Source: Verrucomicrobiales bacterium
Lineage (GTDB): Bacteria; Verrucomicrobiota; Verrucomicrobiia; Verrucomicrobiales; DEV007
Length of the DNA stretch: 64,000 nucleotides
Assembly: GCA_029213065.1 (NCBI GenBank)
Contig: JARGPH010000001.1
Coordinates: 248,001-312,000 of the forward strand
Direction of reading: 5' to 3'
Shown here: positions 5,614 to 58,053 of the stretch, piece by piece
Layout of the letters: every line of letters starts with the position of its first letter
How positions within the stretch are numbered: the stretch's first letter is position 1
Program-made: the position numbers and the translations under genes
The notes under the pieces: generated by a model
What the model was told of the DNA's origin: nothing
The model's database searches: none
Seen by the model: the letters and a program-made list of their open reading frames with translations, nothing else

Positions 5614-6159
5614 TTACTCACCGCCTTTTGCACCTTTGGCCGCGTCGCCTTTAGCAGGAGCAGGGGCCGGTGCTTTCGCTTTTTCCTTCGCAGCAGGTTT
5701 TGCAGGGGCCTTCGCTTTTTCTTTCTCTCCGCCTTTGGGCTGCGCAGGCTTGGGAGCCTCTTTCGCCTTGGGCGCTTCGGGGGCCGGAGCATCCGGTGCG
5801 GTCGCCGGAGCAGGAGCAGCCTGCTGAATTTGCTGGATCATCTCAGGAGTGATTCCTTCGGGAAGTTCCGGCTCGCGATCGACGACTTTCTCGAGAACAT
5901 CATTTGCTGCAGACGAGCGGAATTCGCGGGTTTTCACCATCGCGAGTCCGATTGCAGAAACGAAAAAGAGGATACCGAGCCAGGTCGTGAATTTCTGGAG
6001 AATGTCGGTGGTGTGAGCTCCGAGAGCAGAATCAAGAGATCCTCCGCCGAATGCCGCGCCGAGACCTTCCTGCTTGGGACGCTGGATCAAGACGATCAAT
6101 ACCATCAAAATGCTGACAGCAATGATGACGACGGTTAACAAAATGGATAGAATTGCCAT
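5614..6159 (-). CDS. secG: Preprotein translocase subunit SecG with long Ala/Pro/Lys tail
   Basis: It is a small inner-membrane subunit of the SecYEG channel. ATG at 6159 (MAILSILLTVVI, 181 residues) is preferred over the upstream start at 6219. Two membrane helices flank the SecG motif: residues about 3-23, then LIQRPKQEGLGAAFGGGS (QxxKGxGLGAAFGG in the family), then about 54-72. Ordinary SecG is 75-110 residues. Here a low-complexity C-terminal extension of about 80 residues follows, made of Ala, Pro and Lys (KAKAPAPAPAKG type). It is divergent from recD2, with 78 bp between them. Confidence 0.9.
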   Translation of the reverse strand: MAILSILLTVVIIAVSILMVLIVLIQRPKQEGLGAAFGGGSLDSALGAHTTDILQKFTTWLGILFFVSAIGLAMVKTREFRSSAANDVLEKVVDREPELPEGITPEMIQQIQQAAPAPATAPDAPAPEAPKAKEAPKPAQPKGGEKEKAKAPAKPAAKEKAKAPAPAPAKGDAAKGAKGGE

Positions 6160-6237
6160 GGGGCGGCGAATATGCGACACAGGTGTATGGTTGTAAAGGG
6201 CGAGAATTGCGTCTCTCAATCATCGATAGAAAACACC

Positions 6238-8487
6238 ATGCCGGAAAATCCCACAGATCCAGCTTCCACGCCCGAGCTTTTACCCCCAAACGGACCGGTA
6301 GAAATCGAAGGAACTGTGTCGTCGATTGTTTTTCATAACGAAGAGAACGGCTATACGATCATGTCGGTCGCTCAGGAGCTTGGTGAGCCGATCACGGTGC
6401 TGGGACGGCTTCCTGCGGTGGTCGAGGGCGAGCAGGTTCGCGTCAGCGGAAATTGGAAAAATGATAAGCGATTCGGTCGTCAAATGGAGGCTTCCTCGAT
6501 CGTCGCGGTCGCTCCGGTGACGAATACGGGGATCGAAAAGTTCCTCGCGAGCGGTTTCATCGACGGCATTGGAAAGGCCTACGCGAAACGCATCGTGAAA
6601 AAATTCGGCGAGGAAACCTTCCGTGTCATCGAGGAGGAGTCTCAAAGGCTCGAGGAGGTCGAGGGAATTGGGAAAGGCCGCCGACAGAAAATCAAGGCAT
6701 CGTGGAAACGGCAGAAGGCGGTGCGGGACATCATGATTTTTCTTCATGGTCACGGTCTCTCGACGGCGCGATCGCTTCGCCTTTACAAAACCTACGGTCC
6801 CGAGGCGGTCAATATTCTGCGCTCCGATCCCTATCGCCTCGCCCGCGAACTCTCAGGAATCGGATTCAAGACCGCTGACGATATTGCGAGTAAGATGGGC
6901 CAGCCCCTCGAGGCGCCTGCGCGAATCGATGCGGGAATCGAATACGTGCTCGATCAGGCGAAGCAGCACGGCCACTGTGCCCTGCCGAGGCCGGAGCTGC
7001 TGAAGGGAGCCGCTGACATTCTCGGCACGGACGGGGAACTGATCGAGGCATCCCTGAACCGGCTCATCCTCACTTCAAAAGTCGTCATCGAGGACGGCAC
7101 CGCCGATCCCCTCGTCTTTTCCGCCCCTCTTTATGAAGCCGAGCAACTCGTGAGCGCAGCAGTTGCTTCACTTTTGCGGGCTGAGCCAAATCTACCCGAA
7201 TTTGATCCGGAGGCTGCGCTTGCCTGGTTCGAGCGCCATCAGAAGCTCACTCTCGGTGCGGAACAGGCTGCCGCGGTGCTCGAAGCGATCAGCCATCGTT
7301 TCCACATCATCACGGGTGGTCCCGGTGTCGGCAAAACCACGATCATGCGGGCAATTCTCGAGATCGTGACCGCTAAGAAGGTGCAGGTCGTTCTCTGCGC
7401 ACCGACAGGTCGTGCCGCGAAACGTCTCTCGGAAAGCACCGGACAGGAAGCCTTCACGATCCACCGGGCTCTCGAGTATCAGCCTGAGGTCGGCTTCACC
7501 CGGAATCAGAACAAGCCGCTCCAGGGAGATCTCTTCGTGGTTGATGAAGCCTCCATGATCGACATCGAATTGATGGCAAGCCTGATGCAGGCCATTCCGC
7601 CGGACGGCAATGTCCTCCTCGTCGGCGATGTCGATCAGCTCCCCTCGGTCGGACCGGGAAATGTCCTTCGCGATTTGATCAACAGCGGTGTCGTCCCCGT
7701 TTCACGTCTCCGGGAAATCTACCGCCAGGCGGCCGAAAGCGACATCGTCACCGCAGCGCACGATATCAACGAAGGGAAAACCCCGCCCCTGAGCAACGCA
7801 AAAGGAAGTGACTTTTTCTTCCTCGAACGCAACGGCCCCGACGCGATTCGCGAGACGCTCGTGCACCTTATCAGGGAGCGGATCCCGGAGGGCTTCAAAC
7901 TCAATCCCCGCGACGACATTCAGGTGCTCACGCCGATGAACAAGCAGTCGCTCGGCACCGCTGAATTGAACAAACTCCTCCAGGAGAATCAAAATCCGCC
8001 GGGTGCTTTCAAACAGGAAATCGAACGATTCAGCAACCTGTTCCGTCAGGGGGATAAAGTCATCCAGACGCGAAACAACTACGAGAAAGAGATTTTCAAC
8101 GGGGACATCGGTCACATTTCCGAGATCACGAACGAACCGGTTTCGATCTACGTGACCTTCGAAGGGAATCGCCGCGTCCATTTCGAACCGGGCGAGCTCG
8201 ATGAGCTCCAGCTCGCGTATGCGATCACGATTCACAAATCGCAGGGTAGCGAATTCCCCGCCATCATCGTTCCCCTCGCCTCTCAGCATTACGTGATGCT
8301 CCAGCGCAATCTCCTCTACACCGCGGTGACCCGGGGGAAATCTCTCGTCATCATTGTGGGCGAGCGGAGAGCCCTCGAAATGGCTCTATCAAACACCACC
8401 AGTTCGATGCGACATTCCGGTCTTTGCCGACAATTGAAGAAGGCTCTCGAAAATCTGGATGCCCCGTCCGATCACTCGAGTATTTGA
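6238..8487 (+). CDS. recD2: ATP-dependent 5'-3' DNA helicase RecD2 (RecD/TraA family)
   Basis: It is a superfamily 1B helicase acting in DNA repair, independent of RecBC. ATG 6238 (MPENPTDPAS, 749 residues) is chosen because the frame upstream overlaps the secG promoter region. An OB-like N-terminal region (EIEGTVSSIVFHNEENGYTI) is followed by helix-hairpin-helix repeats (IDGIGKAYAKRIV; VEGIGKGRRQKI). Then come Walker A GGPGVGKTT, Walker B VVDEASMID, motif III VGDVDQLPSVGPG, and the C-terminal AYAITIHKSQGSEF and LLYTAVTRGKS motifs. The long N-terminus with HhH motifs separates RecD2 from the RecD of RecBCD. Length is normal. Confidence 0.95.
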   Translation: MPENPTDPASTPELLPPNGPVEIEGTVSSIVFHNEENGYTIMSVAQELGEPITVLGRLPAVVEGEQVRVSGNWKNDKRFGRQMEASSIVAVAPVTNTGIEKFLASGFIDGIGKAYAKRIVKKFGEETFRVIEEESQRLEEVEGIGKGRRQKIKASWKRQKAVRDIMIFLHGHGLSTARSLRLYKTYGPEAVNILRSDPYRLARELSGIGFKTADDIASKMGQPLEAPARIDAGIEYVLDQAKQHGHCALPRPELLKGAADILGTDGELIEASLNRLILTSKVVIEDGTADPLVFSAPLYEAEQLVSAAVASLLRAEPNLPEFDPEAALAWFERHQKLTLGAEQAAAVLEAISHRFHIITGGPGVGKTTIMRAILEIVTAKKVQVVLCAPTGRAAKRLSESTGQEAFTIHRALEYQPEVGFTRNQNKPLQGDLFVVDEASMIDIELMASLMQAIPPDGNVLLVGDVDQLPSVGPGNVLRDLINSGVVPVSRLREIYRQAAESDIVTAAHDINEGKTPPLSNAKGSDFFFLERNGPDAIRETLVHLIRERIPEGFKLNPRDDIQVLTPMNKQSLGTAELNKLLQENQNPPGAFKQEIERFSNLFRQGDKVIQTRNNYEKEIFNGDIGHISEITNEPVSIYVTFEGNRRVHFEPGELDELQLAYAITIHKSQGSEFPAIIVPLASQHYVMLQRNLLYTAVTRGKSLVIIVGERRALEMALSNTTSSMRHSGLCRQLKKALENLDAPSDHSSI

Positions 8488-46912: not shown

Positions 46913-49900
46913 CTATTCAAACAACTGCTCCGAGATCTCTTTCAACTCCTCCGGCGCGATTTTCTGCACTTTACGGTCATAGGTAAGTAACCCGTTAATC
47001 TCGCCTTCGACGTCAGTCGTCTGCGTGTAGATCCCTGCGGCAATTCCCTCACCCTTCAATTTCGCGAGCATCTCGATTGAGGTCCGGTAGCGCTCCAGCC
47101 ATTCCGTCTTGTCTTTGGGCAATCCGCCGTATCCCCAGTTCCTCGTTTTCGTGTCCCAGACGTGTCCCTTCACGGGAAAACCGTGACCACCGAACTCGCC
47201 CATCACTTTCACGAAGTCGGTGAAGCGTCCGCCTTCCCCGTCACCAAAAGGAAACTCGGGATGAGGATAATGATGGGCATCGACAATGTGACCGCCCGGA
47301 AAGAAATTCCCTCCGCTCGCAATGTTGACCTGACGGGTCTTGTCGTAATCCGTCGTCCACTTACCCACCTCGAGAGTCTGGTGCTGCCCCCAGCGTTCAT
47401 TGAAAGGCACCCACTGCACAATCGAAGGATGATTGTGCAGCGTATCCATCATCAACTTCAACTCGGACATGAACTGCGCATGAGCACCCTCCGGCCATTC
47501 CACCGTGGGAGGATTCGGCTTCAAGCGGGTCCACTCGGGGTTATCAGCCATTGCACTGACCTGGTCCTGCCACACTAACATCCCCATTTTATCGCAGTGA
47601 TAGTAATAGCGGCGCGGCTCGACTTTGATGTGCTTCCGGATTGTGTTGAATCCCGCGTCTTTCAAAAACTGAATATCGGATACCATTGCCTCCTCTGAAG
47701 GCGGAGTGAGCAATCCGTCAGGCCACCATCCCTGGTCAAGTGTTCCCCAGTGAAAAATCGGATTCCCGTTCAAGGTGAAACGCCAGTGTCCCGCATCGTC
47801 CTTTTCAATTCCTGTTTCACGAATCCCGAAGTAGGAGTGCACGACATCCTTCCCCGCTGTGATCCGGAGGTCGTAGAGATTCGGTTGATGAGGACTCCAC
47901 AACCTCGGGTTCGGCACCGTGATTTCAAAAACGCCTTCTTTCCCTTTTTTCCCTGCCATTTCATCCCCACGATGCAGGACCATCACTTCGATGTCGTCTC
48001 CACGACCATAACCGTCGAGCGTCACCGCAACCGTGATTCGACCACTCGCTTTCGTCGACACCTTCACGTGATCAATGTGGAGGGCGGGCACCTCCTCCAT
48101 CCAAACGGTCTGCCAAATCCCCGAAACAGGCGTGTAGAAAATTCCTTTCGGATTGAGTCGTTGTTTACCGTGCAATTGATAAGCACCCTCCTGATCCGTC
48201 GCATCAGTCACCTTCACGACGACGGTGTTTTCGCCTGATTTCGCCGCATCGGTAATCTCAAAACGAAACGGTAAATTACCACCCGTGTTCCGCCCCACCT
48301 CGACACCGTTGACCCACACGGCACACTCATAGTCGACTGCCTCAAAATTCAGGAAGTAACGCATCCCCTCCTTCTTCTCCATTCTCATCGTGCGCTGATA
48401 CCACAGCGCATCATCCGGAGTGAAACGTCGCTCAACACCGGAAAGCGGAGCCTCGATCGCAAAGGGCACGAGGATCTCGCCGTCCCAGTCCCCGGGCACC
48501 TCGCTCCCTTCCTTCGGCACCACCGCGTAATTCCACATTCCGTTCAAATTCGTCCAGTTCTCCCGACGCAACTGCGGGCGCGGGTAGGCATCCCAGACAT
48601 TCGCCGCCGTTACCTTCTCCGCCCAGGGAGTTCGCATCACCACCTTGGGAACGATCACTTCGACTTTGTGATCAATGAGCTTTCCATTGAAGCGATGGGG
48701 CGCTTTGTAATCTCCCACTGCATGCACTCCGTCACCGCCGAGGAAAAGCCCGAGGCCCGGCTGTTCGGCGAGAAAGCCGTCGATCTCCCCACTCGCGACC
48801 GGCTTTCCGTTCACCGACAAGGTGATCTCTTTTTCACTGACATGAACACGAAGGGCAACCTTTCCCTTCACCGGTTTCTCAGATGCCACCACAGTGAGCT
48901 TGCTCTTATTCCGCCACGCAAAGGAAGGACGCCCCTCTTTGAAATACAGCGAGTAGCCAAACGCGTTTCCTCCCTGAGCGAGAACAACTCCGTTCGGTTT
49001 CGGAGCACGCACGTTCGCCGTCACTGTGAATTCCCTCCCGACGATCTGAGGCGGATTGGGCTCCGGTTTGAGAGCGGACGGATTGCCATGTTCATCAGCA
49101 TTTGCGCCATTTGCACCTGCAGCCGACGAAGGACTTCCCTTCCCGCGCGGATAGACACCGACCCGATTCGCCCACGCTTCCCACAAGCGAGCCATCGACT
49201 GGACCGTCTCAGGATTCGCCGCAGCGAGATCATGCATTTCGGTTCGGTCGCGCTCCATATCATAAAGCTCCCACTGCTTCTGATTCGTCCCCGCCAGCAT
49301 TGCGACCTCTTTCCCCACCAGCTTCCACTTCCCGTCGCGAACCGAGGCATTGGTTTCGTGTTCGAGGAAAATGGGGTCAGGACGATTCAGAGGCTTCGCC
49401 CCGAAAGCAGGCCGGAGAGAAATTCCATCGAGAGCGGGAATGTCATTTCCGCGCATTTTCTCCGGATACGTTGCCCCTGCCACATCCAGAATCGTCGGCA
49501 TGATATCGATAAGCTGACCGGGTTCGCCATACCAGTCGGCACGGGGCTCGATCTCAGCCGGCCAATGCATGAAGAACGGCGTCGCCGATCCACCTTCGTG
49601 GGTGAAGTGCTTATAGTAGCGGAAAGGAGTGCTTCCCGCGTTCGCCCAGGCCTCGCCATAGCTGTTATTGTCGCTTTGATTGCGTTTCTCAATATCCAGG
49701 AAGGCACCGCGCCCCAGGATGCCACCTTCCTGACAGGCTCCATTATCCGAAAGAAAAAGGATCAAGGTGTTCTCATAAGCGTTTTCCGCTTTCAGATTTT
49801 CAATCAACTTTCCAATATTGTGATCCACCCGGTCAACCATCGCAGCATAGACCGCCATCTTGAGATCCATCTCATCCTGCTTTTTCTCGTCGAGAGAATC

Positions 49901-50749
49901 CCAGTCGGGAATCCCCGGTGTCCTCGGGGAAAGCGGCCAGTCCTGATCGATCAAACCAAGCTCGATCTGCTTCGCATAGCGAGCCTCCCGCAAGACCTCC
50001 CACCCCTCCTTGTATTTTCCCCGATACCTTGCGATGTCATCCTCAAAAGCCTGCAATGGCCAATGCGGCGCGGTGTAGGCGAGGTAGAGAAAGAAAGGAT
50101 CCTCAGCGCGTTCCTTTCGATGTTCACTGACAAACTGAATCGCGTAATCGGTGAACGCATCGGTCGTGTAGTAATCCTCATCCGTCGTGCTCACGGGAGG
50201 GTCGACCGGCTCATTTCCCAAAGAAATACCACGGTCGCCATGAGGGTGAAAAAATCGTGTAGCCCCGGTAACACAACCATAATATTTTTCGAATCCGCGC
50301 TGCATCGGCCAGTCGGATTTATCACCGGCACCGAGATGCCATTTTCCCGTCATGAGTGTTCCATACCCGGCTTCCTTCAGCGCCTCCGCAATCGTCACAC
50401 ACGACTCGTTGAGATGCCCCAGATAAGCCGGCGGTTCGCTTTTCCCACGCTTGCTTCCGGGAGGCTGAGTCATCCAACCGATCCCCGTTTCATGGGGATG
50501 AAGCCCCGTCATCAACGTGGCCCGGGTCGGACAACACCTCCCCGAATTGTAGAATTGAGAAAACCTCACCCCACCGGCAGCAAGGGCGTCAATGTTAGGT
50601 GTTTCAATCTCACTGCCATGATAACCGAGATCGGAAAACCCGAGGTCATCGAGCATGATCAAAATCACATTGGGACGCTCAGCAGCCTCCATGGGCATTA
50701 GAAAGAGAAGACTGCAGGCGAAAAAGAAAACGGATAATCGATTCATCAA
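46913..50749 (-). CDS. Sulfatase - laminin-G-like - GH2 glycoside hydrolase fusion
   Basis: The 1278-residue exported protein has a signal peptide (LSVFFFACSLLFLMPMEAA). Sulfatase domain about 24-520: ILIMLDDLGFSDLGYHG, formylglycine C72 in GRCCPTRATLMTGLHPHETG, GKWHLGAGD, ILFLSDNGACQEGG. A short sheet domain about 560-700 (FTVTANVRAPKPNGVVLAQGG, GKVALRVHVSEKEITLSVNGK) separates it from a GH2 module about 720-1278: sugar-binding fold (VDYECAVWVNGVEVGRNTGGN), acid/base Glu in VPFNERWGQHQT and nucleophile Glu in VMGEFGGHG. One polypeptide could desulfate and cleave a sulfated galactan- or glycosaminoglycan-type substrate. Both active sites look intact. Confidence 0.9.
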   Translation of the reverse strand: MMNRLSVFFFACSLLFLMPMEAAERPNVILIMLDDLGFSDLGYHGSEIETPNIDALAAGGVRFSQFYNSGRCCPTRATLMTGLHPHETGIGWMTQPPGSKRGKSEPPAYLGHLNESCVTIAEALKEAGYGTLMTGKWHLGAGDKSDWPMQRGFEKYYGCVTGATRFFHPHGDRGISLGNEPVDPPVSTTDEDYYTTDAFTDYAIQFVSEHRKERAEDPFFLYLAYTAPHWPLQAFEDDIARYRGKYKEGWEVLREARYAKQIELGLIDQDWPLSPRTPGIPDWDSLDEKKQDEMDLKMAVYAAMVDRVDHNIGKLIENLKAENAYENTLILFLSDNGACQEGGILGRGAFLDIEKRNQSDNNSYGEAWANAGSTPFRYYKHFTHEGGSATPFFMHWPAEIEPRADWYGEPGQLIDIMPTILDVAGATYPEKMRGNDIPALDGISLRPAFGAKPLNRPDPIFLEHETNASVRDGKWKLVGKEVAMLAGTNQKQWELYDMERDRTEMHDLAAANPETVQSMARLWEAWANRVGVYPRGKGSPSSAAGANGANADEHGNPSALKPEPNPPQIVGREFTVTANVRAPKPNGVVLAQGGNAFGYSLYFKEGRPSFAWRNKSKLTVVASEKPVKGKVALRVHVSEKEITLSVNGKPVASGEIDGFLAEQPGLGLFLGGDGVHAVGDYKAPHRFNGKLIDHKVEVIVPKVVMRTPWAEKVTAANVWDAYPRPQLRRENWTNLNGMWNYAVVPKEGSEVPGDWDGEILVPFAIEAPLSGVERRFTPDDALWYQRTMRMEKKEGMRYFLNFEAVDYECAVWVNGVEVGRNTGGNLPFRFEITDAAKSGENTVVVKVTDATDQEGAYQLHGKQRLNPKGIFYTPVSGIWQTVWMEEVPALHIDHVKVSTKASGRITVAVTLDGYGRGDDIEVMVLHRGDEMAGKKGKEGVFEITVPNPRLWSPHQPNLYDLRITAGKDVVHSYFGIRETGIEKDDAGHWRFTLNGNPIFHWGTLDQGWWPDGLLTPPSEEAMVSDIQFLKDAGFNTIRKHIKVEPRRYYYHCDKMGMLVWQDQVSAMADNPEWTRLKPNPPTVEWPEGAHAQFMSELKLMMDTLHNHPSIVQWVPFNERWGQHQTLEVGKWTTDYDKTRQVNIASGGNFFPGGHIVDAHHYPHPEFPFGDGEGGRFTDFVKVMGEFGGHGFPVKGHVWDTKTRNWGYGGLPKDKTEWLERYRTSIEMLAKLKGEGIAAGIYTQTTDVEGEINGLLTYDRKVQKIAPEELKEISEQLFE

Positions 50750-50903: not shown

Positions 50904-52302
50904 CTATTTGGCTTTCTTCTTAGCCGGAGAGAAAAGAGGATCGCCACCGGCCTGAGGCGTCCGACCGGTCTCAAACAAAGGGGCCAGCCTCGCAACCACA
51001 TCCGGGAATTCTTCAGCGAGATTCTCTGTCTCCGCGATGTCTTTTGAGAGATCGTAAAGCTCGATCTGCATCGCCTTTTTGCCCTTCTGTGTTTTAAGGC
51101 GATGAATCTTCCAGTCACCCTGACGAATCGCCTGCCAGCCGCCTTTTCCGACATTCTCCCAATAGAGGAACTCATGTGACTTCTGCTCTGCGGTTTCCCC
51201 GTAAAGGGTAGGAAGGAAACTGATTCCATCAATCCCCGCAGGAACGTCTGCCCCCGTCAACTCGGCGAGGGTGGGCATGACATCCCATTGCGCGGAAACA
51301 TGGTCGGTTTCCGATCCCGCTTCAATTTTCCCCGGCCAGCGTGCAATCATCGGGCAGCGAATCCCCCCCCTCATAAAAATCAAATTTGATCCCGCGAAAG
51401 ACACCATTCCCGTCAAAGAACTCCGGGTCAGCGCCTCCGGCGGGGGTTGGCCCGTTATCGCTCGTGAAAACAATTAACGTGTTATCCGCCAACCCTAACT
51501 CATCCACCAAATCGACAATTCGCCCGACGTCACGATCGAGCCGCGAAACCATTCCGGCAAAGGCCGCGTGCGGCGTCTTTTGATGAATGTAGTGCTGACC
51601 ACCCGGCTTTCCGTAGGGCTTCGTTTCCTCAACCTTTCCGACCCAGGGTTCAACGGAATCCGGAGGCACATCAAGATCGACATGGACAAGAGTAAACGGC
51701 ACATAGAGGAAGAAAGGCTGATCCTGATTGTCTTCGATAAAGGTCAGGGCTTCGCGCGTGAATTCATCATGACTGTAATGAGTCCGGAATTCTTCGTTCC
51801 CAGGATAGATAACCTTCTCCTCATTTCGCCACATGAAGGGCGGGTAATGCTTGTGCGCATTGCGTTGATTGAGGTAGCCGAAGAAATGATCGAAACCCTG
51901 ATACCAGGGCACTCCGGTGGTGCCTTCTTCACCGACGCCCCATTTCCCGATCGCAGCGGTTTTGTAACCCGCATTTTTCAACACCTCCCCCACGGTGACG
52001 TCCTGATCGAGCAAGGGACCGTCGCCATTCGAACGAACGCGCGTATGCCCCGTGTGCTGCCCGGTCATAAGACAACTGCGAGTCGGAGCGCAGGATGAAC
52101 TGCCCGAGTAATGCTGAGTAAATCGCATTCCCTCCTTCGCGAGCTGATCAATTCGCGGTGTCTTCAGAAGGGTCTGTCCGTAACACCCGACATCTCCGAC
52201 ACCAAGGTCGTCCGCGAGGATATAGATAATATTCGGCTTTTCCGCTGAAGAGACGACCAGCGGAAACAGTAGAACCAGAAAAAGCGGGAGAATACGCCTC
52301 AT
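50904..52302 (-). pseudogene. Secreted sulfatase, split by a one-base frameshift in an 8-G tract
   Basis: ATG 52302 (MRRILPLFLVLLFPLVVSSAEKPN) opens with a signal peptide, then YILADDLGVGDVGCYG, formylglycine C71 (SSCAPTRSCLMTGQ), GKWGVGEEGTTG and VFTSDNGPTPAGGADP. After GIKFDFYEGG the frame turns to a stop at 51322. The expected continuation GIRCPMIARWPGK ... ELYDLSKDIAETENLAEEFPD is in the next frame, ending at 50904. Removing one C from the run of eight (51363-51370) restores a normal 465-residue sulfatase. It may be a pseudogene, a slippage-controlled gene or an assembly error. Follows the Gfo/Idh/MocA gene by 19 bases. Confidence 0.88.
51363..51370 (-). other. Homopolymeric G8 tract at the sulfatase frameshift
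   Basis: On the minus strand GA is followed by eight G residues and ATTCGC. Seven G would keep EGGIRCPM in frame; eight gives EGGDSL and an early stop. This is the place where the frame changes. Confidence 0.85.
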
Positions 52303-52321
52303 AGAATCACTTCGAGTTAAA

Positions 52322-53683
52322 TCAGGCATCGAGCGACCAGCCTTCACGGTAGGAGCGCCCGAGGTATTTCTCCATTTCCGGAGCGTTCGGGAATTTCATA
52401 TTTTTCGCATCCCATTCGAGCTTTTTACCGGCACGGAAAGCGACGTTACCGAGGTGATTTGCCTCCGTCAAAGGTCCCGAGTAGCTGAACTCACAAAGCG
52501 GCCTCGGTCCTTCGCCCTTGCAGGCGAGAATCCACTCAGCCTGCTGCCCGGGCGACGGGTCAATGTAAGGCGTGGGCGGAGTAAAGCCTGAGAACTTATC
52601 TTCCGGGAGCAATTGCAGCTTACTGTAATCGGCGAGGAGCATTCCCTCGTCGCCGACGAAGAGGCAGCCTTCGTTCCATTGCGGGATCCTGCCGTCTTTC
52701 CACAGCGCCGGTTTTTCTGAACCCTGATACCATGTCAAAGTCACCGGTGGCAGCTTCCCGCGTTTCCCATACTCATACTTCGCCCACATCGATGCAGGGG
52801 CAATGTCAGGGTGAGCCGCGTGAGGTCCGCCCGCTTCGATGCTCAAAGGCGCATCGAGTTTCAAAGCCCAGAATGGCAGGTCATTCCGATGACTCCCCAG
52901 ATCTGACATCGTTCCATTTCCAAAATCCCACCAGCGATACCAGCGGGGACCGGGAAAATACCATTCGTGAAAATCACGATACGGAGCCGGCCCGATCCAG
53001 GTATCCCAGTCGAGGCCATCGGGAACCGGCATGGCATCTTTCGGCGTATCGGGTGTGTAAATAAGATCTTTGTTAGCCTTTGCCTCCTCCTCCGTCTGAT
53101 GCCCCCAGGCCCGGCTCGTCCAGACATGAGTCTCACGAACCGCACCGATCGCTCCGCTTTCAATCAGCTCGACGACACGACGAAAATTCTCCCCTGCATG
53201 AATCTGGGTTCCCATCTGGGTCATCAACCCGGGACGCTTCGCTGCTTCTTCAGTGATAAGGCGACACTCGTGAACATCACGGGTCAGTGGCTTTTCGCTG
53301 TAGACGTGCTTTCCGGCACGGAGAGCGGGAAGGGTGACAAAGGCGTGGGTGTGCTCGGTCGTCGAGACAACCACAGCGTCGATATCTTCGAGCTGACCTA
53401 ACAAATCACGAAAATCCCCGTAACTTCTCGCCTTCGGAGCCGTCTCCATTGCCTTCCCGAGATTGATCTCGTTCACATCGCACATTGCGATGATGTCCTC
53501 TCCCAGTTCAGAGACAGCTTTGACATGGGCACGCCCCCTACCGCCAACACCGACGAGTGCGACATTCAATTTTGAATTGGGGGACTGAGAACGCGTGATC
53601 GCCGGAAAACTGAAGGTGGACGCCGCGGCGACAGCACTGGTCTGCAGTATCTTCCGGCGCGAGGGCAAAGTAGGTTGCTTCAT
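52322..53683 (-). CDS. Gfo/Idh/MocA family oxidoreductase (TAT-exported)
   Basis: The 453-residue protein begins with a TAT signal (PSRRKILQTSAVAAASTFSFPA). The Rossmann fold follows (LNVALVGVGGRGRAHVKAVSEL; DIIAMCDVN) with the sugar-binding EKPLTRDVHEC and the downstream WDFGNGTMSDLGSH. The C-terminal domain is the DUF-type seen in PVC homologues. Such enzymes interconvert sugars through keto intermediates with tightly bound NAD. It is the second gene of a likely unit: dimethylformamidase-like, then this, then the split sulfatase. Confidence 0.92.
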   Translation of the reverse strand: MKQPTLPSRRKILQTSAVAAASTFSFPAITRSQSPNSKLNVALVGVGGRGRAHVKAVSELGEDIIAMCDVNEINLGKAMETAPKARSYGDFRDLLGQLEDIDAVVVSTTEHTHAFVTLPALRAGKHVYSEKPLTRDVHECRLITEEAAKRPGLMTQMGTQIHAGENFRRVVELIESGAIGAVRETHVWTSRAWGHQTEEEAKANKDLIYTPDTPKDAMPVPDGLDWDTWIGPAPYRDFHEWYFPGPRWYRWWDFGNGTMSDLGSHRNDLPFWALKLDAPLSIEAGGPHAAHPDIAPASMWAKYEYGKRGKLPPVTLTWYQGSEKPALWKDGRIPQWNEGCLFVGDEGMLLADYSKLQLLPEDKFSGFTPPTPYIDPSPGQQAEWILACKGEGPRPLCEFSYSGPLTEANHLGNVAFRAGKKLEWDAKNMKFPNAPEMEKYLGRSYREGWSLDA

Positions 53684-53746: not shown

Positions 53747-55264
53747 TCACCTCGAAACAGCGCGGTCCAAAAGATTCTTTGTCATCCTCTGAACCCGCTC
53801 ATCGGGACCGTGTGGACGGGACCAGTGCGACCAGGGCAACATGTGCCCCGGGGGAGAACTGAGCCCCTGACACCAGAAGATGGTCGAGGCATTGAAGACA
53901 AAGTTTCCCTTCGGTCCCGGATAAACCGTTGCGGCCCATTGCTGAGGATTGACTCCTCCCTGCAAAGCGGTTCCCGCGCCGACGACCTCAAGCCCATCGA
54001 TATCGTCCGGCGGATCGCCGTGATACTCCCACCCGATCAGCCCGGGAATTCGATCCCCCTTTTTCATCCCTGTTCCTTCAAACATCCAGTGCTCCGGCTT
54101 CTCGCATATCCAGTCTCCCCCGCCATTTACCGGATCGACATTTCGAGCTCCCATGAGATACCCCTCGTCAGGTCCGCGATGCGGAAAGGGTCCCTCGTCA
54201 CGCTCGCGCGCTTCCGCGTAGCGATACTCCCCGCCATAAGGTCCCCCACGGAACATGATCCGGTTCTCCCGCCCGTCGGAGGAAGGCGTCATCGGTGTCA
54301 CCCAGCAGACCGAGTTTCCCGAGAAGAAGAGAAGGTTCGTCCCCGCGTCCCGCATCTTAACGACGTTGTCGTAGGCCCGACGATCCCAGTATTCATCGTG
54401 CCCATTGCTGATAAAGGCCTTGAACCGGTCCGGCTGCGCATACTCCGGATCGATCATGTCAGCGTTCGAACAATAAGTGACATCGTAGCCCTCTTTCTCC
54501 AGCCAGTAGGCCATGGGAAACTCAAAACAAAGCCATTCGCCCGATCCGATCGACTGGGGATTCTCGTAGATCTGAGAGTATTTCCCGTAAGGGCGGTCAA
54601 AACTCACATCCGCCCAGGGCCCCTGATTTCCTTTCGGGTGCGTGTAGACCGAGAAGTCATTCGGCCAGCGATTGTAGGCCTGCCAGGTGTTGTCAGAGCA
54701 CTGAAGGCAAATATCCGCTTTGCGATCATCCTTGACGATGAAGACGATGTAGCTTTGCCAGTATCCCCCGTCTTCATCGGAGGCAGTCGTGAGACGCGCT
54801 AGATAGACACCGCTCTGCCAGTCATCGGGAACAGTCATTGAATGCGTCGGCTCCCACTGACATTCATGCAAATGCCGGTCCCCCCGTGTCGATTCCGGAA
54901 CCGCCCGGGTTTTACAGGGCACCTCATTAACCCGCTCGACGAGGCGTGCTCCCTTTCCGCCATAGTAGCCGGTTCGGAAAATTTCAATGGTGCAGCGGCC
55001 CGGTGCCCTGACGCTGATAAAAAACGCTATCTCCTCCCCGCTCCTGACTGACTGTTTCGAGGCATACCCCTCGATATCGGAGGCTCGATACCCGGACCGC
55101 TCGTCGAGCCGGACCCGTGTGAGTTGCCAGTCATCGCTTCCCTCCTTCGCGTTTTCGAGGACAACACGGTTCGCGCTATCGGAGGCTTCGCTGCCTAAGA
55201 GAGGACTCGCTCCGATCGGCGCGAGGAGCCCTCCTTTGAGAAATCGTCGACGATTCGCTTTCAT
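53747..55264 (-). CDS. N,N-dimethylformamidase large-subunit-like protein
   Basis: ATG 55264 (MKANRRRFLKGGLLAPIGAS, a TAT-type signal) gives 505 residues. The main body carries the DMFA2_C-type blocks: IEIFRTGYYGGKGARLV, DDWQSGVYLARLT, DICLQCSDNTWQAYNRWP, ISNGHDEYWDRRAYDN, LLFFSGNSVCWVTPM and the C-terminal NASTIFWCQGLSSP. In dimethylformamidase this subunit holds the active site; other members act on unknown amides. It lies 63 bp before the Gfo/Idh/MocA gene. An export signal suggests a role outside the cytoplasm. Divergent from the parvulin gene. Confidence 0.82.
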   Translation of the reverse strand: MKANRRRFLKGGLLAPIGASPLLGSEASDSANRVVLENAKEGSDDWQLTRVRLDERSGYRASDIEGYASKQSVRSGEEIAFFISVRAPGRCTIEIFRTGYYGGKGARLVERVNEVPCKTRAVPESTRGDRHLHECQWEPTHSMTVPDDWQSGVYLARLTTASDEDGGYWQSYIVFIVKDDRKADICLQCSDNTWQAYNRWPNDFSVYTHPKGNQGPWADVSFDRPYGKYSQIYENPQSIGSGEWLCFEFPMAYWLEKEGYDVTYCSNADMIDPEYAQPDRFKAFISNGHDEYWDRRAYDNVVKMRDAGTNLLFFSGNSVCWVTPMTPSSDGRENRIMFRGGPYGGEYRYAEARERDEGPFPHRGPDEGYLMGARNVDPVNGGGDWICEKPEHWMFEGTGMKKGDRIPGLIGWEYHGDPPDDIDGLEVVGAGTALQGGVNPQQWAATVYPGPKGNFVFNASTIFWCQGLSSPPGHMLPWSHWSRPHGPDERVQRMTKNLLDRAVSR

Positions 55265-55388
55265 GGAACGGAGACTATCAGACGGAACCGGCCTTGTGAA
55301 CGCAGAGATTCGCAGTGTCGCAGCCCGTAATTGCGTGCATATTCCGGTTGTTTCCAAAACCAATCGAAACGAAACTTCCCCTCAAAAT

Positions 55389-56557: not shown

Positions 56558-56594
56558 AGCGTGCTTCCGGAGAGATTCGGGGCACGCTTTTTTT
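56558..56594 (+). terminator. Rho-independent terminator of the parvulin gene
   Basis: AGCGTGC (56558-56564) pairs with GCACGCT (56582-56588), with CC/GG pairs extending inward, and is followed by a run of T to 56594. It also ends at the convergent ceramidase-like gene. Confidence 0.8.
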
Positions 56595-58014
56595 ATGGCT
56601 TCAGCAAAGCACGGGTCATTCCGACGATCTCACCAACGAGTTTGTCTTCAATCCCCGGCCCCCAGGGAGCGGGATGGATCGTCGATCTCGCGAAACGCAT
56701 CGCCTCGCCTCCCTCATAGCCACCTTCTTTGAGGACCCGCTCACTCGGAATATAGGTCATGACATCATTGGAGTAGCCAGCGACCCAGACTGGATTTCCT
56801 CCGGTCAGTTCGGAAAGTTCCTTCTTCAAACGGAGCGAATAGTCGATCACGACCTCACCTCCGAGAGTTGCCATCGTCAGCTCATTTCCAAACCGGAAGA
56901 CTTGAACCGGCACCGGGTAACTCGTTGGCAGCTCCCCTCCCTGCTCCAGTATTTCGAGAAGAAAAGCAGCATGACGCGCTTCGTATTTGTCCGCGGATTC
57001 GACTCTCTTCTCGAGGACCCGCTTTCCGGGCGGCTCCTGATAGGCAATGTCCACCCAGGAGAGGTCACTCCGCAACGGCCCCGTCAACGCGACCGAGGGT
57101 GTGTCCAGGGCCGCCTCAATGGCCGTCGCCATGCTCTGACCATGACGCTGCGCGAACCGGAGCATGCGCCTCGGGTAGGGATTCTGATCTCCCGAACAAC
57201 CATTCACGAACATCGCAACCACTCCGGGATGGTCTTCTTCAAAATAGCGCTGCGCGTAGCCCGGCCAGTCGCCGTTGATCTCCATGAGGGAAAGGACCGT
57301 GGCATGACAGGAGTAACCAAATAGGACCGCTTTCAGTTTCCCATCTTCGCTCGATTTCACCTGGAGCACCGGCACCTCATGATCGACCGGCCCTTCCGGG
57401 TTGGGGCTGTTCTTCCATTGGCCTGCCGCTGCGGGCAGTCTGCGATTGATCGCGAAGCCGCACCGTGTTTTTGACCAGAGCATCTTCGAAGGGGCTGCAG
57501 ACTTGAAAGCGTCATCGACAATACCAACCGCTTTCTTCTCGAGGAATTTTAGGTAGTCCTGCGTCTGCTTTACCCGTAGTTCCTGCTGATCTTCGGGAAC
57601 ATTTTCATAAGCGGCTTTCACCTCCCCGTTCCCGCCCGGTGGCTTGTAAACCCGGATCATCGGCCCACTGTGCGTGTGCGAAGCATTGATGAGCAAAGCA
57701 TCCCCCGGCAGATCAAACTTCGTCTGAAGCGCCGCCTCCACCGCATCCCGAAAAGGACGCGGAACCCCGATGAGATCCATTGTCACAATGACAAGACGAT
57801 TCGACTCCCCGTCCTCCATCGTGATCGCCTTTGCAAAAATCGGCTCAAGCACTTTTAGCGCCGGACCCTTTCGGGCAGAATATCCTGCCATCCATCCAAG
57901 CTCCTTCGGTGTGATATCTGCGACCGCGACGCCGACCTTGAAGGTGTCGTCTCCGGCCCCCAGCAGAGGGCTCCCCCCGATGAGGAGAGATAACGCAATT
58001 CCCCTCAGATTCAT
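56593..58014 (-). CDS. Neutral/alkaline ceramidase-like exported hydrolase
   Basis: ATG 58014 (MNLRGIALSLLIGGSPLLGAG, signal peptide) gives 473 residues. The ceramidase N-terminal pattern is present: KVGVAVADITPKELGWMAGYSARKG, VIVTMDLIGVPRPFRDAV, LLINASHTHSGPMI and FGYSCHATVLSLMEINGDWPG with zinc-binding His. The usual C-terminal domain is shortened, as in many PVC 'neutral ceramidase N-terminal' proteins, which may act on substrates other than ceramide. The gene is divergent from the next, with 39 bp between them. Confidence 0.85.
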   Translation of the reverse strand: MNLRGIALSLLIGGSPLLGAGDDTFKVGVAVADITPKELGWMAGYSARKGPALKVLEPIFAKAITMEDGESNRLVIVTMDLIGVPRPFRDAVEAALQTKFDLPGDALLINASHTHSGPMIRVYKPPGGNGEVKAAYENVPEDQQELRVKQTQDYLKFLEKKAVGIVDDAFKSAAPSKMLWSKTRCGFAINRRLPAAAGQWKNSPNPEGPVDHEVPVLQVKSSEDGKLKAVLFGYSCHATVLSLMEINGDWPGYAQRYFEEDHPGVVAMFVNGCSGDQNPYPRRMLRFAQRHGQSMATAIEAALDTPSVALTGPLRSDLSWVDIAYQEPPGKRVLEKRVESADKYEARHAAFLLEILEQGGELPTSYPVPVQVFRFGNELTMATLGGEVVIDYSLRLKKELSELTGGNPVWVAGYSNDVMTYIPSERVLKEGGYEGGEAMRFARSTIHPAPWGPGIEDKLVGEIVGMTRALLKP

Positions 58015-58053
58015 CGTGATCGAATTTATCATCTCCTGATAGCCTAACCGGAG

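Follow-up and report, generated by a model that had tools for sequence, protein, structure and literature searches.

Does a single reading frame in this 64,000-nucleotide stretch of a Verrucomicrobiales genome (hereafter the window) encode one protein that joins a sulfatase to a GH2 glycosidase and, if so, on what kind of glycan would the pair act? The preliminary description had proposed one polypeptide with a C72-C-P-T-R sulfatase site and the GH2 glutamates in FNERWG and GEFGGHG, and all three motifs were found where claimed, the glutamates being E1118 and E1185. The minus-strand frame 46913-50749 is open throughout, with no internal stop, and counts 1278 codons from a TTG at 50749. Because the codon directly after this TTG is an ATG (50746) and a near relative likewise begins with MNR, the ATG is the likelier start, and the protein has 1277-1278 aa (Table 1). 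A by-eye reading of the N-terminus gives a hydrophobic core followed by EAAERPN, and the protein is probably exported or secreted; no second signal peptide was seen by eye inside the frame, and promoter- and terminator-like sites inside the gene showed no excess over shuffled sequence, so that the DNA gives no sign of the two separate transcripts named earlier as a ground for doubt. Chance resemblance is no concern, since the two halves each match solved enzymes (E 6e-151 and 3e-109). Two intact modules within one protein are well supported. The kinds of parts are known and the combination is new; no fusion of the same kind was recognised in the titles and abstract openings of the literature searched, most subscription journals lying outside that search.

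Table 1. Features of the fusion gene in window coordinates.
Feature	Position	Strand	Basis
Whole gene: S1_4-type sulfatase / beta-sandwich / GH2 fusion	46913..50746	-	ORF, Pfam, relatives
Signal-peptide-like N-terminus, ~residues 2-23	50681..50746	-	Read by eye
Formylglycine sulfatase module, nearest S1_4, ~residues 24-540	49130..50680	-	Pfam, structure matches, alignment
Low-complexity linker, residues 541-559	49073..49129	-	pLDDT <50
Beta-sandwich, ~residues 560-700, LamG-like by sub-threshold Pfam	48650..49072	-	Pfam, model
GH2 furanosidase-type module (group III, GH2_18 side), residues 703-1278	46916..48643	-	Pfam, structure matches, alignment

The N-terminal module matches the Pfam Sulfatase model over residues 26-426 (202 bits) and has the makeup of an S1 formylglycine sulfatase: besides the C72 motif with R76, residues D34, D35, K136, H138, H229, D335, N336, and K380 are present and conserved, with catalytic and metal-binding roles that we presume from PAS and BT4683. 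In the alignment, R71, C72, H229, D335, N336, and E341 are retained in 21 of 21 fused rows, which include two contig-cut loci (L013 and L014) and one frame-broken locus (L030). Among solved structures, 7all and PAS rank first both by sequence (369 and 317 bits; the next match, at 200 bits, covers part of the length only) and in a fold search with the predicted model (7all, Z 53.8 over 468 aligned residues at 2.0 Å; PAS, 48-50; S1_19, 43.4), and the module is closest to the S1_4 enzymes, BT4683 and then PAS. R71 and E341 align in sequence with R72 and E335 of BT4683, which we take to be contacts to O2 of the galactose at the 0 subsite; specificity is not established by that alignment. 7ALL is given as BT4683 (PMC12421950), which is described as an S1_4 endo-acting 3S-galactose sulfatase with an open cleft (PMC10154612), and PAS is likewise placed in S1_4 (PMC5066984). 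S1_4 includes arylsulfatases as well, and BT4683 itself cleaves in endo mode at galactose, so the sulfatase module need not act on a furanose. The source genome holds 144 sulfatase matches and candidates for FGE, while matches to an anaerobic sulfatase maturase in the genome search stay below the cut-off.

In the C-terminal half, the Pfam models GH2_N, GH2, and GH2_C all exceed their cut-offs, and the N-terminal, immunoglobulin-like, and TIM-barrel domains of the family are present, with N1117-E1118 as acid/base and E1185 as nucleophile. E1118, E1185, and T1242 occur in all 54 aligned rows, and N1117 in 53 of them. The best solved matches by sequence are 7sf2 (507 bits; entry title, beta-galactosidase), the galactofuranosidase 9j6n (372), and 7xyr (222), and the model ranks them in the same order (Z 50.4, 47.6, and 40.6, followed by a galacturonidase at 32.3). 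With 9J6M/7XYR nearest and T1242 at the Trp-to-Thr position of the -1 subsite, a position picked by eye from the motif, the module belongs to GH2 group III (GH2_18/19) and is neither of LacZ nor of glucuronidase type. This group is reported to comprise beta-D-galactofuranosidase and alpha-L-arabinofuranosidase activities, with Thr replacing Trp (PMC12243196). The GH2_18 reference lies closer than the GH2_19 reference by both measures given above (9j6n versus 7xyr), the root of the GH2 tree on 7xyr being a choice.

Between the two catalytic modules, the preliminary description had placed a sheet domain likely to bind glycan. A beta-sandwich is indeed predicted there, coming after the disordered linker and, in the model, joining GH2 without one. 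The domain reaches no lectin or LamG Pfam cut-off (the LamG models score 20.4 and 20.6 bits against thresholds of 27.6 and 24), so it falls short of membership in the LamG or concanavalin-A-like lectins, and glycan binding by it is at most a possible role. The fold searches used model residues 2-524 and 178-734, chiefly the catalytic parts.

The balance of evidence tips slightly toward a secreted two-step sulfatase and furanosidase-type exo-enzyme for a sulfated, furanose-bearing glycan. After export, C72 would be converted to formylglycine, and the S1_4-type module would remove a sulfate ester, perhaps one at O3 of an arabinosyl residue or of a residue with galacto configuration. Acting next on the same chain, the GH2 module, as a furanosidase-group exo-glycosidase with a retaining mechanism, would remove a beta-D-galactofuranosyl (or alpha-L-arabinofuranosyl) unit, either one blocked by the sulfate or one beside it, and the sandwich may bind the glycan or act as a spacer. 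Candidate targets would be sulfated galacto-arabinans of green algae that bear Galf side chains; sulfated arabinans carrying beta-D-Galf side chains are on record (PMC7550628; PMC9695659). The substrates suggested earlier (sulfated galactans, fucoidan, and glycosaminoglycans) fit poorly to a GH2 group reported active on furanoses. A more specific version is doubtful: that the protein is the key enzyme of a dedicated sulfated-furanose route (green-algal galacto-arabinans with Galf, or sulfated alpha-L-Araf chains), its S1_4 module having a new specificity for arabinosyl or galactofuranosyl sulfate and working in cis with the GH2 furanosidase, and some relatives forming a three-enzyme chain with GH43.

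A serious competitor, less probable than the two-step reading, is that the modules act on separate parts of a polymer in no obligate order, an endo sulfatase working on backbone units such as 3-sulfated beta-L-Arap or Gal while GH2 trims unsulfated furanose side chains, so that the fusion serves co-localisation only. The described endo action and open cleft of BT4683, the disordered linker that separates the sulfatase from the rest, and Cladophorales arabinans, whose backbone is reported to be 3-sulfated and whose side chains are Galf (PMC7550628), all agree with it, whereas the ulvan enzyme P36 is described as acting consecutively on one residue. It is unlikely that GH2 is instead an ordinary beta-D-galactopyranosidase and the fusion a 3S-galactose sulfatase with an exo-beta-galactosidase that would degrade sulfated galactans or arabinogalactan proteins. 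The entry title of 7sf2, the reported action of BT4683 on 3S-Gal, and a description of Bacteroides plebeius using sulfated arabinogalactan proteins by means of a sulfatase and neighbouring GH2/GH43-type enzymes (PMC8406133) speak for that assignment; however, LacZ/GUS-type structures score far below the close galactofuranosidase (at most 81 bits, Z about 30-32), and Thr stands at the group III position in every aligned row. A catalytically dead module retained for binding is very improbable: some GH2_19 members are reported to have lost the NE motif (PMC12243196), but here the GH2 Glu pair and the six checked sulfatase residues are intact in all the rows counted above. An assembly join, or a read-through artefact of two adjacent genes, can practically be dismissed. 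Relatives do carry separate S1_4-sandwich, sandwich-GH2, and GH2-only genes, but the same fusion sits in one frame across relatives, including a single-contig genome, and purifying selection acts on the sandwich and both modules.

These relatives bear directly on the join between two genes that had been named as grounds for doubting the single polypeptide. A near-full-length, single-frame fusion occurs in 12 of 23 same-genus genomes, the source included, the other 11 copies being 57-85% identical and 3 of the 12 touching a contig end. The fusion is split by contig ends in two further genomes (G002 and G018), the sulfatase frame runs off its contig in G016, and a search for the GH2 part at E 1e-60 had no hit in the remaining 8 of the 23. 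Elsewhere in the order, 0 of 13 genomes yielded the fusion. The phylum sample has it in at least 3 of 387 genomes, a lower bound since scoring covered each genome's top two candidates; two other genera are represented, one by the single-contig genome. The loci retrieved in all contain 20 distinct full or near-full fusions; the scan for related loci kept the best 80 of 107 matches, or 79 loci. Against three relatives, dN is far below dS in both halves, with dS near or at saturation.

Alignment rows were chosen by score and length, and divergent relatives are therefore missing. The GH2 alignment kept 54 of 58 rows, the window included (left out: L053, L082, L085, and L090), and the sulfatase alignment 39 of 42 (left out: L041, L058, and L062). 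Before tree building, we removed 11 loci, namely the window's own copy (L001), L049 (close to L048), L033 (contig-cut), L030 (frame-broken), and seven that each match a G genome (L021, L023, L024, L026, L027, L028, and L037), along with rows failing the score or length limits. Trees were built by quick searches, with no bootstrap: on the GH2 tree (66 rows) the S-L-G label must change at least four times, and on the sulfatase tree (46 rows), which has many long branches, seven times.

The recurrence of such couplings supports the earlier suggestion that joining desulfation to glycosidic cleavage points to a sulfated glycan. L101 (genome G347) encodes S1_4-sandwich-GH2-GH43 with a different S1_4 (42% identity) and a GH2 at 63%, L042 (Planctomycetales 10988) a sulfatase-GH2-GH43 whose sulfatase is only 25% identical, L050 the reverse order, GH2 then S1_4, L048 a GH2-GH43, and L064 a GH127-GH2. 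Pairing in both orders favours neither consecutive nor co-localised action, and the GH43 and GH127 fusions hint that the sugar is arabinose or xylose and not Galf. GalK adjoins the fusion in L032 and GalT lies between S1_4 and GH2 in L043, a weak observation because it was spotted post hoc in 2 of 110 loci; the sole further matches in a phmmer search of these 110 loci were weak kinase ones, in L091 and L093. With 19 window proteins as phmmer queries, synteny among the 32 loci listed was strong in L021 and partial in L039 (three neighbours) and in L037, L029, and L023, where each shared one or two, with no constant glycan-related partner gene. Pfam found no transporter or classical glycosidase among 13 window frames and a 3-keto-disaccharide hydrolase domain in one. 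Verrucomicrobiota GH2 genes near sulfatases have been termed likely galactosidases in print (PMC8857213).

To our knowledge, no sulfatase is known to act on sulfated furanose glycans. A natural fusion tells which two steps belong together, as annotation of a genome with so many sulfatase matches cannot, and the conserved sulfatase-furanosidase pair offers a handle on how Verrucomicrobiota break down green-algal sulfated arabinans; if the two-step action is true, the protein would also be a useful tool enzyme.

Over the full length of the sulfatase module, the closest solved relatives are BT4683 (7ALL) and P. aeruginosa AtsA/PAS (1HDH), neither of which has a GH2 in its chain; 7ALL shares the GRCCP-R segment with the fusion protein, and where both have Arg before the motif, PAS has Thr. 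For the GH2 module they are the beta-D-galactofuranosidase ORF1110 of Streptomyces sp. JHA19 (9J6M/9J6N, GH2_18) and the B. cellulosilyticus GH2 (7SF2), which have the same Glu pair and YT.-TDVE.E.NGL.TYDR tail and no sulfatase. L042 and L101 do join this GH2 type to a sulfatase, with an extra GH43 module. The nearest precedent for the architecture is Formosa agariphila P36, described as an S1_25 sulfatase with a GH78 alpha-L-rhamnosidase for ulvan, likewise a formylglycine sulfatase and an exo-glycosidase in one polypeptide for a marine sulfated glycan, whose modules are reported to act in consecutive steps (PMC8511951). Compared by its end modules, P36 differs in sulfatase subfamily, GH family, and phylum (Bacteroidota); our sulfatase model scores Z 34.8 against 6hr5, the S1_25 module of an F. 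agariphila rhamnosidase that we infer to be P36 itself, versus 53.8 for 7all. The window protein is thus an S1_4-type sulfatase with GH2 and not an S1_25-GH78 hybrid, and the best reading, by analogy, is that it would work as P36 does on ulvan, on furanose-bearing sulfated glycans.

The gene at 46913-50749 (minus strand) is open throughout its 1278 codons in the ORF listing of the window, and the preliminary description was right to read it as a sulfatase and a GH2 glycosidase in one protein, with C72, E1118 and E1185 at the positions it had assigned. Pfam places a Sulfatase domain at residues 26-426 and GH2_N, GH2 and GH2_C domains within 745-1145, each above cut-off, with sub-threshold LamG matches in the beta-sandwich region between them. 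TTG 50749 is the mechanical start; ATG 50746 is likelier, because it is the next codon and a close relative (locus L021) begins MNR, and the N-terminus reads by eye as a signal peptide. On the strand opposite the sulfatase module, 48668-50701 (plus strand) is open for 677 aa, which probably just reflects codon use.

The fusion occurs as a single three-module frame in 12 of 23 same-genus genomes, its own included; three of these frames reach a contig end, and the other 11 copies are 57-85% identical to ours. Contig ends interrupt it in G002 and G018, a sulfatase frame continues past a contig end in G016, and the GH2 part had no match at E 1e-60 in the remaining eight. Outside the genus, 13 genomes of the order yielded no fusion. 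In the phylum sample, 3 of 387 genomes carry it (its own, G041 at 57% and the one-contig genome G347 at 53%), a lower bound since only two candidates were scored per genome. Among titled records, where the best of 107 matches gave 79 loci, 11 had it unbroken, several from genomes already counted; removing duplicates left 20 distinct full or near-full fusions. The same single frame in relatives, including G347, rules out an assembly artefact. In comparisons with three relatives, dN was far below dS (near or at saturation) in all three parts. One same-genus genome carrying the fusion, G004, has a second GH2 copy (G004:C71:13178-14914, plus strand; 58% to residues 705-1278) within a 3017 aa open frame.

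The sulfatase module ranked closest in the PDB to 7all (369 bits) and the P. aeruginosa sulfatase PAS (1hdh, 317 bits), the next other enzyme scoring 200 bits over less than half the length. Residues 22-705, modelled with AlphaFold (mean pLDDT 87.8), matched 7all at Z 53.8 (468 residues, 2.0 A), PAS at Z 48-50 and S1_19 enzymes at Z 43. 7ALL is BT4683 (PMC12421950), described as an endo-acting S1_4 sulfatase on 3S-Gal in which Glu and Arg hold O2 (PMC10154612); PAS is likewise assigned to S1_4 (PMC5066984). R71 and E341, aligned to BT4683, are conserved in 21 of 21 fused rows. A PF03781 match (286 bits) is plausibly a formylglycine-generating enzyme, and the anaerobic sulfatase maturase model stayed below cut-off in the genome.

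For the GH2 module, sequence ranking gave 7sf2 (507 bits), 9j6n (372), 7xyr (222) and LacZ-type enzymes (81), and the predicted model of residues 545-1278 (mean pLDDT 91.2) matched the first three at Z 50.4, 47.6 and 40.6, no other listed GH2 structure exceeding Z 32.3. One published division assigns 9J6M to GH2_18 and 7XYR to GH2_19, both in group III, with reported beta-D-galactofuranosidase and alpha-L-arabinofuranosidase activities and a conserved Thr replacing the -1 Trp; GH2_18 enzymes are mostly secreted, whereas GH2_19 enzymes mostly are not (PMC12243196). Evidence against a furanosidase is that 7sf2 bears the title beta-galactosidase and that Verrucomicrobiota GH2 genes near sulfatases have been termed likely galactosidases (PMC8857213). 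The module fits the furanosidase group because E1118, E1185 and T1242 are kept in 54 of 54 aligned rows and N1117 in 53, and its nearest structures after 7sf2 are group III. Within this furanosidase group, GH2_18 is favoured over GH2_19.

Related couplings recur in relatives (table). L101, whose genome is a single contig and represents a different family within the order, has a divergent S1_4 part (42% identity vs 63% for its GH2); the L050 frame directly follows a separate S1_4-like gene. Other loci encode another sulfatase with GH2 and GH43 (L042), GH2-GH43 (L048) or GH127-GH2 (L064), and S1_4-sandwich (L061) and sandwich-GH2 (L034) also stand alone. GalT lies between S1_4 and GH2 genes in L043, and GalK immediately precedes the fusion in L032. 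Taken together, these arrangements indicate glycans that bear furanose, arabinose and galactose rather than a single sugar. In the window, the adjoining sulfatase gene (50904-52347, minus strand) consists of two overlapping frames, 51322-52347 and 50904-51473; its counterpart in L021 is a single frame (5980-7389), and either the window frame is truly broken or its sequence contains an error.

Coordinates of neighbouring genes and of multi-domain frames in relatives and the own genome
Feature	Location	Strand	Remarks
N,N-dimethylformamidase beta-subunit C-terminal domain-like	window 53747-55363	-	268 bits
Neutral ceramidase-like	window 56593-58032	-	63 bits
S1_4-sandwich-GH2-GH43	L101:370-5445	-	1691 aa; three enzymes in one protein
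GH2 first, S1_4-type sulfatase second	L050:5613-9146		Planctomycetales
GH86-like + two sulfatases	L114:804-6548 (own genome C21:21500-30500)		1915 aa from first Met
DUF7133 + HEAT + cytochrome c + two sulfatase domains	L115:1258-8586 (own genome C74)		2443 aa
DUF7133 + HEAT + copper-binding + one sulfatase domain	L116:590-7321 (own genome C21)		2244 aa

The own genome has 144 sulfatase matches. In its L114 frame, a part resembling GH86 agarases/porphyranases (E 4e-13 to 8h97) and a beta-porphyranase C-terminal domain accompany the two sulfatase domains. With at least this one further likely sulfatase-glycosidase fusion in the genome, the window gene is not unique in being fused in this way.

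Natural glycans carrying both sulfate and furanose groups exist, and we infer that such glycans may be the substrate: Cladophorales arabinans are reported to contain 3-sulfated beta-L-Arap and to carry beta-D-Galf as side chains, Chaetomorpha has 5-linked alpha-L-Araf with 2- or 3-sulfate (PMC7550628), and the sulfated arabinan of Codium isthmocladum is branched with Galf side chains (PMC9695659). A tested precedent is P36 of Formosa agariphila, whose S1_25 part desulfates terminal rhamnose, which its GH78 part then removes (PMC8511951). By analogy, our protein would desulfate first and then trim. It combines known modules in a way that is new, as a new form of sulfatase-glycosidase hybrid.
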